From the NCBI RefSeq assembly GCF_011745145.1, contig NZ_CP050191.1, positions 5,248,147 to 5,312,146 of the forward strand: a stretch of DNA of 64,000 nucleotides, given 5' to 3'. A model generated the notes under the pieces. That model did no database searches, was not told where the DNA came from, and worked only from the letters and a program-made list of their open reading frames with translations. Source of the stretch: Mycobacterium sp. DL440. Lineage in GTDB: Bacteria > Actinomycetota > Actinomycetes > Mycobacteriales > Mycobacteriaceae. This document shows positions 59,371-61,041 of this stretch, in pieces. A program made the translations under genes and the position numbers. Within the stretch, counting starts at the first letter, position 1; each line of letters starts with the position of its first letter.

Positions 59371-60832
59371 CTAGCGGTCCCGCCGCTCGTCATGCGTCGG
59401 GAAGTGCTCGGCCAGCGCCGCGGCGATCTCCAGGAACCGGCGCCGCGTCGGGGTCGACATCTCCCGCGGGTCCACGACGCCACCGGGCCGCAGATGCCCG
59501 TCGAACGGGACCTCGATCACCCGCTGACCCTGACCCGAAAACTGCCCGGCCAGGATCGTCCGCGTGCGTTTGTCGGCGTGGCCGTCGGAGTCGTTGAGCA
59601 CCACGACGGTGCGCTGCAACAGGTCCGTCATCTCGTGGGCGGCCAGCCAGTCCAGGGTCTGCCCGGCAGTCGCGGCGCCGTCGACCCACGGGGAGGACAC
59701 CACGATCAAGCCGTCGAGATCGCGCAGGACCTCCTGGGTCACCGGCGAGTCCATGGTCGAGCTGCAGTCCACCACAGAGATGGAGAAGTGCCTGTCGAGC
59801 CGGGTGGTGGCCTCGCGGTAGATGGCCGCGTCGAGCACCCGGCGGCGGGCCGGGGTGCCCTCGCCCGCGAGGACGAAAAGCCCCGCGGCGTTGGTGCCGA
59901 CCCGGCTGCGCACGTCGGCGAACGAGTCCAGGTGTTTGTCGTTGGCCAGCTCCCAGTACGAGCTCTGGGCCCCGGGATCAACGCGGCTGCCGAGCTTGCC
60001 GAATGACGTGTCGGCGTCGATGGCCACCACGCGATCGTCCTGGCGCAACTGGGCGAAGATCGATCCGACGCTGGCCGAGACGGTCGTCTTGCCGACCCCG
60101 CCCTTGCCCATCACCCCGACCTTGTAGTGGCCGCGCAGGAGACCCTTGATCTTGGTCTCCAACTCGGTCATCCGAAGGTCTTCCGGCGACGGGCCGGGAT
60201 TGATCATCCCGAAACTGGCCCGGTACACGAACAATCGCCAACCGCTGCCCGGTGGCTGACGCTTCGGCGGAACCAGGTCGTTGACCCGGATGCGATCGGC
60301 GTATGACCCGGTCGGCAGGGGCGGCACGCCGGGTGCGGCCGCACCCGGATCCGGTGCGAATCCGCCCTCGGCGGGCCAGGGCTGACCGGGTGGTGGCCCG
60401 TACGGACGCTGCGGTGGGCCCCCGGGTCCGGGCGGACGCTGCGACGGAAGCTGCCAGCCGGGCGGGTTCTGCTCCCACGCATCCGGCCGGCGGCTGTCTC
60501 TTAGACACCTCTGACGCGGCCTACGATGCGGCGAGTGTATCTCTCCGCCGGCACTGTACGCTCCAACACAGCATCCGTCCGTGCCGTTGGCATACACCTG
60601 AGGCGCGCTCGGCGTCACGGTCGACGGGTACGACCTGCGATTGGCCGGAATCGTCGGAGTCGGAACCGGCCGGGGCCTTCGACGGTATGAAATCCACCGG
60701 CGGCCGCCCAGGTATCGACGGCGGCGGCTCTGGGGGTTTGCGGCGGGTCGGCCGGGTGTCGGGTTCGAAGTGTGATTCCTCCGGCCCCGTCCAGCCGAGC
60801 TCTCTACGCAAGGTGTCGTCGGGGTCGGGCAC
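59371..60832 (-). pseudogene. espI: EspI-like MinD/ParA-type ATPase, reading frame broken (probable assembly artefact)
   Basis: The C-terminal part is a P-loop ATPase of the MinD/EspI type: VGVMGKGGVGKTTVSASVGS (deviant Walker A), VVAIDADTSFGKLGSRVD and VVDCSSTMDSPVTQEVL. Upstream, a Pro-rich N-terminus starts at the GTG at 60832 (VPDPDDTLRRELGW, GGAGGAG 8 bases upstream) and runs in a different frame to a stop at ~60521. The two parts look like one gene. The break coincides with a Nextera adapter-like stretch at 60494-60563, so the damage is probably not in the genome. It is divergent from espE. EspI affects ESX-1 secretion in M. tuberculosis. Confidence 0.8.
60494..60563 (+). other. Probable Illumina Nextera read-through adapter in the assembly
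   Basis: 60494-60526 matches the 33-base Nextera read-2 adapter (mosaic end CTGTCTCTTATACACATCT then GACGCTGCCGACGA) at 29 positions. 60527-60534 (TGCGGCGA) sits in the 8-base index slot. 60535-60563 begins GTGTA and matches the following P5-side sequence at about 17 of 29 positions. The order and spacing are exactly those of a library molecule. The substitutions are those of a low-quality read end. Flanking sequence to about 60600 is also suspect. Confidence 0.88.
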
Positions 60833-61041
60833 GCCTGAATCTCCTCCGGAACTCACACAAGGGAACTTGGACCGTGTTCAAGTATCGACTACAACCCGTC
60901 CGGCTTGCAGGATCCGTCCGTAATCCGGCGGAACTAACGTCGCAGCAAATTCGGATGGCAAATCCCGCAGCAGGTCGCGGAGCGCGTGGGCGGCGCGCTC
61001 GGCGACACCCCGAAGTGCCCTTGGGTCGGTGCCCCGGGGAT

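Follow-up and report, generated by a model that had tools for sequence, protein, structure and literature searches.

Does the broken reading frame near position 60494 of this stretch of the Mycobacterium sp. DL440 assembly (64,000 nucleotides, termed the window below) record the decay of a gene beside a presumed ESX-1-type locus, or was the break produced when the genome was assembled? A first-pass annotation, made from the letters alone, had proposed the second, reading the site as a Nextera sequencing adapter with read errors that interrupts an "espI-like" gene. From the adapter match itself, the DNA of relatives, the remainder of the contig and samples of other public assemblies, we consider it nearly certain that the feature at 60494-60563 is a sequencing adapter built into the assembly, a technical artefact and not biology.

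On the forward strand, bases 60494-60563 follow the order of parts of a Nextera read-2 read-through: mosaic end, adapter arm, eight-base index slot and P5 sequence (Table 1). Scored against that arrangement, the interval agrees at 46 of 62 fixed positions, and the runner-up among all offsets on both window strands reaches 33. The opening 33 bases (60494-60526), comprising the mosaic end and GACGCTGCCGACGA, carry exactly four substitutions, as had been remarked at the outset, and the eight index-like bases and the P5-side match described after them lie where they had been placed. A mosaic-end scan of the whole window returned one match, with 2 mismatches, against 0.01 expected; this figure and the score of the complete arrangement sustain the original view that the resemblance is not fortuitous. 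Taken alone, the 29-base P5-side segment scores 17/29, a value equalled at 42 of 127,944 offsets on both window strands, 60535-60563 itself included. Substitutions climb along the adapter, from 4/33 in the first part to 12/29 thereafter, as in a read losing quality. The index slot agrees at 4 of 8 bases with AGAGGATA, the i5 index of three other sites described below, which leaves the case for an artefact neither proven nor weakened. The 33-mer formed by the mosaic end and GACGCTGCCGACGA appears in published papers.

Table 1. Features of the interrupted gene and its foreign stretch (window positions), and further adapter sites in the same assembly (contig positions).
Feature	Coordinates	Position	Strand	Evidence
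MinD/ParA-type ATPase gene, C-terminal part, genomic	window	59371..60493	-	DNA identity of relatives; Pfam CbiA 2.9e-8
Tn5/Nextera mosaic end	window	60494..60512	+	17/19 matches
Nextera read-2 adapter arm	window	60513..60526	+	12/14 matches
8-base i5 index slot	window	60527..60534	+	4/8 agreement with AGAGGATA
P5-side sequence	window	60535..60563	+	17/29 matches
Further foreign stretch, 38 bases	window	60564..60601		homology of relatives resumes at 60602/60603 in 12/19
MinD/ParA-type ATPase gene, N-terminal part, genomic	window	60602..60856	-	80/85 residues identical to L060
R1 read-through	contig	730512-730558	730558 on -	41/58
Two facing mosaic ends	contig	1094316	both strands	within 3 mismatches
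R1 read-through, then A-rich tail	contig	2788251		52/58
R2 read-through, mosaic ends facing	contig	2929154	both strands	48/62
R2 read-through	contig	4155178		39/62
R2 positions 11-36 facing a mosaic end	contig	4225056		partner gapped/truncated, read by eye
R2 read-through, then eight A	contig	4460626		50/62
R2 adapter, then exactly 100 N	contig	5472339 (L053)		31/33 bases before Ns
Adapter remnant	contig	5965507		22/24

The open frame at 60521-60856 terminates within the foreign stretch, and the gene frame is thus lost at the adapter in the assembly as it stands, in agreement with the first reading. The extent first given, 60494-60563, holds for the adapter; the foreign sequence runs further, to 60601, homology resuming at 60602. 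Neither adapters nor the corresponding stretch of relatives matched bases 60564-60601 convincingly: when a gene relic was sought there, the lowest shuffle counts among 12 relatives were 2/200 and 3/200, unconvincing after 12 tries, and the whole foreign stretch compared with relatives gave a lowest shuffle count of 6/200 (L060). No recognisable adapter was found at the right edge. These bases are probably the low-quality tail of the same read, or of a read from the opposite side.

The sequence that the foreign bases displaced can be judged from 19 relatives, taken from 74 related loci and compared at the DNA level. Left-side homology ends at 60477-60493 in 15 of the 19 and at 60390-60404 in the other four, the left alignment end falling at 60490 in ten relatives, at 60493 in one and earlier in eight. 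Right-side homology starts at 60602 or 60603 in 12 and at 60668-60747 in five; the contigs of the remaining two (L059 and L067) begin at that place. Between the alignment ends, on which these lengths depend, 12 relatives have 116-168 bases where the DL440 assembly has 108 foreign ones, so that bases were swapped in rather than inserted, as in a badly filled gap. The stretch of the relatives opposite the foreign bases has a GC content of 0.71-0.81. The left flank shares 83-93% DNA identity with 15 of the 19 relatives, and 88-93% with the seven relatives L059-L065; the right flank, including the intergenic stretch, shares 76-86% with the five of these seven that have it. The comparison with relatives that had been suggested as a check showed the gene to be uninterrupted, as one open frame of 460-572 codons, in each of the 17 examined (the 19 minus L059 and L067, which start at a contig end), and no mosaic end at three or fewer mismatches occurs in any of the 74 related loci.

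Contigs also begin or end close to this locus in other assemblies. Using a distance of about 210 bases, chosen after seeing the table, a contig starts within that distance upstream of the match, or inside it, at 7 of the 74 related loci (L059, L067, L080, L097, L105, L110 and L130), and ends within 210 bases on the opposite side at one (L118). Three of these contigs, those of L059, L067 and L097, have their starts 6-89 bases upstream of the match, within the stretch of the ATPase gene considered here or next to it. The region looks hard to assemble for other groups too. In M. tuberculosis, according to PMC4744016, it is above all regions of high GC that Nextera XT fails to cover.

The interrupted gene encodes a MinD/ParA-type ATPase, matching Pfam CbiA (PF01656) at 34.1 bits, above the curated cut-off of 25.4. 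Its ATPase part has 95-97% protein identity to Mycolicibacterium peregrinum, M. septicum and M. setense, near which the genome is placed on sequence similarity, and for its N-terminal piece the protein identity to the M. peregrinum locus L060 is 94%. The neighbours, read divergently, are EspA/EspE-, EspC- and EspG-family genes followed by eccA, eccB, eccCa and eccCb, which we take, from gene order, to be an ESX-1-type locus. The broken gene resembles EspI, an ESX-1-associated ATPase, in adjoining this locus and in its ATPase part, which shares 32% identity over 296 residues with the EspI-domain protein of the genome. It differs from EspI in that the EspI N-terminal domain (NF047907) has no match in the piece at 60602-60856, nor in the intact relatives L060 and L061, and is carried instead by a separate, open gene of 476 codons (L163:14963-16390; contig 5322462-5323889) that sits between eccCb and eccD, directly before eccD and about 13 kb from the break. 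The label "espI-like" is accordingly apt in pointing to a likeness but misnames the broken gene, which is not espI and is only distantly paralogous to the one with the EspI domain.

Interrogation of the complete contig revealed further copies of the adapter. At three or fewer mismatches the mosaic end occurs at 12 places in the 6,381,854 bases, against 0 for the reversed control, and these group into ten sites, that of the window included; the nine others (L050-L058 of G000:C1) are listed in Table 1. None of the 12 mosaic ends is exact, one having one mismatch, four having two and seven having three. The threshold for a full-length adapter was 34 matches, and L050, L054 and L057, which fall below it, were counted on shorter matches. 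At four sites adapter pieces face each other, as mosaic ends at 1094316 and 2929154 and, read by eye, with a gapped or truncated partner at 730512 and 4225056. Barcodes recur among the sites: AGAGGATA fills the i5 slot at three R2 sites (2929154, 4155178 and 4460626), while the i7 slot holds TAGGCATG at one R1 site and TAAGCAGG, a copy with two mismatches, at the other. Among the amplicon primers of PMC7589761, TATCCTCT, of which AGAGGATA is the reverse complement, is the index named S503, and TAGGCATG that named N706. Searched genome-wide as patterns, the P5 part gave no match at three or fewer mismatches, which fits a high error rate late in reads, and the P7 part matched at one place, 2788293; the R1 and R2 arms alone (10 vs 7 and 87 vs 31 matches, against their controls) were too unspecific and were left out of the site counts.

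The flanks of the ten sites have a mean GC content of 0.714, a value that none of 5000 random sets of ten window sites attained, and 16 of the 20 150-base flanks exceed the window mean of 0.666, compared with 53% of all such window stretches; in this test the bounds were set by eye and the background was the 64,000-nucleotide window only. Site 4155178 was compared with 12 other genomes. The match to G001 breaks off with the onset of the adapter at query position 301 and picks up again at 378, and those to G004, G008, G003 and G591 begin only past the adapter; BLAST alignments to G006 and G007 pass through the site at 67-68% identity, short matches elsewhere were found in G002, G005, G589 and G590, and none in G588. 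The comparison supports an artefact there, though not cleanly. Runs of exactly 100 N occur in L016 (1750-1849) and L053 (335-434), representing at least two such gaps, which give the single contig the look of a scaffolded pseudochromosome rather than a finished chromosome.

It is the order of the parts, the shared barcodes, the adapter that ends in 100 N and the replacement of gene sequence that lead us to read the site as adapter read-through, and on these grounds the proposal that an adapter was built into the assembly stands. To account for its arrival we infer thin coverage, escape from trimming and a gap-filling step. Fragments of a Nextera library, perhaps of the XT type, that were shorter than the read length would have been sequenced through into their own adapter; clean tails would have been trimmed, and error-laden ones may have slipped past. 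In a GC-rich, thinly covered part of the ATPase gene an assembler or gap filler would have had no honest reads and may have bridged the hole with an adapter tail, at the cost of the bases seen in relatives. Extending from both edges, a gap filler could have joined two noisy tails, or left them flanking Ns. Such a course would yield gene sequence on either side, to 60493 and from 60602, with the mosaic end, the arm, the index, P5 and finally noise filling 60494-60601 between them. The sites resemble Illumina Nextera and Nextera XT read-through contamination in the order of parts (to a P5 or P7 end), the position at gap edges and the sharing of barcodes within an assembly; they differ in being buried in a single-contig pseudochromosome and rich in errors, and with 0 of 12 mosaic ends exact, an exact-match screen would miss these copies.

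The 19-base mosaic end is a genuine substrate of the Tn5 transposase, and a Tn5-type element, introduced by mutagenesis or by natural insertion, could have left one in the gene as a real scar. The mosaic end is followed here, however, by the Illumina-only arm, index slot and P5 sequence; the 108 bases take the place of 116-168 in 12 relatives, whereas a Tn5/IS50 insertion would have added DNA; and adapters of both R1 and R2 types, with barcodes, occupy ten sites of the assembly, one of them running into Ns. A search for the Tn5 transposase family (PF02281) found no match in the genome, an uninformative result in that it also gave none in 14 control genomes. The order of parts and the replacement of gene sequence exclude a natural or laboratory Tn5 insertion to the point that we regard a transposon scar as vanishingly improbable, in keeping with the initial judgement that this is no natural Tn5.

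Taken at face value the assembly shows a broken frame, and true decay of the gene in this strain, with a likeness to the adapter arising by chance, must also be weighed. Chance resemblance is discounted by the score of 46 against 33 at the next-best offset and by the one window match where 0.01 were expected, and the same layout recurs elsewhere in the assembly; nor does decay sit well with the identities of the left flank to L059-L065 and of the N-terminal piece to L060, or with the open frame in every relative examined. We judge this explanation very improbable. A variant accepts the adapter as an artefact and supposes that a natural deletion or rearrangement beneath it also broke the gene; bases under a bad fill cannot be read from the assembly, but both flanks are conserved up to the fill and the corresponding stretch of relatives is open, which leaves such a hidden lesion a small chance. 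Adapter read-through thus remains the reading we adopt.

We extended the search to other public assemblies, using the 19-mer mosaic end at two or fewer mismatches. Of 297 Mycobacterium assemblies sampled, 36 contained it (reversed control 0/297 genomes), a count of sequence matches rather than of proven adapters, only part of which were checked one by one; so did 18 of 296 assemblies of a phylum sample (reversed control 3/296 genomes). Once the DL440 genome is removed, and from the phylum sample those assemblies that belong to the genus, the counts are 35/296 vs 16/291 (Fisher p = 0.008). Of the 35 other genus assemblies that gave a match, 11 were sampled further, yielding 20 stretches for inspection. 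Past the mosaic end, 15 of the stretches run on into an arm of the adapter, into Ns or up to the end of a contig, two (L174 and L175) have a facing mosaic end, and three (L171, L173 and L178) have no clear arm; L179 carries a near-perfect R1 adapter (55/58), and two facing mosaic ends were seen in five stretches (L164-L166, L174 and L175). Exact copies occur in some assemblies (e.g. G233, G150, G074 and G080), and among the places listed others, such as G134, G170 and G244, have mismatched copies only, like the DL440 assembly.

Some genus assemblies hold dozens of mosaic-end-like copies (105 in G041, 97 in G150 and 60 in G109). At L174 (G231:C1:1936690-1936990) further adapter-like sequence, which we take to be the TruSeq adapter, adjoins the two facing mosaic ends. 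Among the titles listed by a literature search none dealt with gaps of mycobacterial assemblies being filled by adapter tails, from which we do not claim that such work is absent. We see about an even chance that a sizeable share of public mycobacterial assemblies holds adapter tails that survive through errors or scaffold gaps and accumulate in coding sequence of high GC content, among it genes next to type VII secretion loci, so that some reported pseudogenes and strain-specific losses would be assembly products; the GC enrichment that enters this proposal was computed for the ten sites of the DL440 assembly only.

The DL440 assembly looks finished, being a single contig; with nine more adapter sites and at least two 100-N gaps, other frameshifts near its GC-rich genes deserve the same doubt, and approximately one in eight of the Mycobacterium assemblies sampled has the 19-mer at two or fewer mismatches. 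Bases 60494-60601 should be masked. The adapter finding is a warning about databases and not a biological result, and the apparent pseudogene beside the presumed ESX-1-type locus is no evidence of gene loss.
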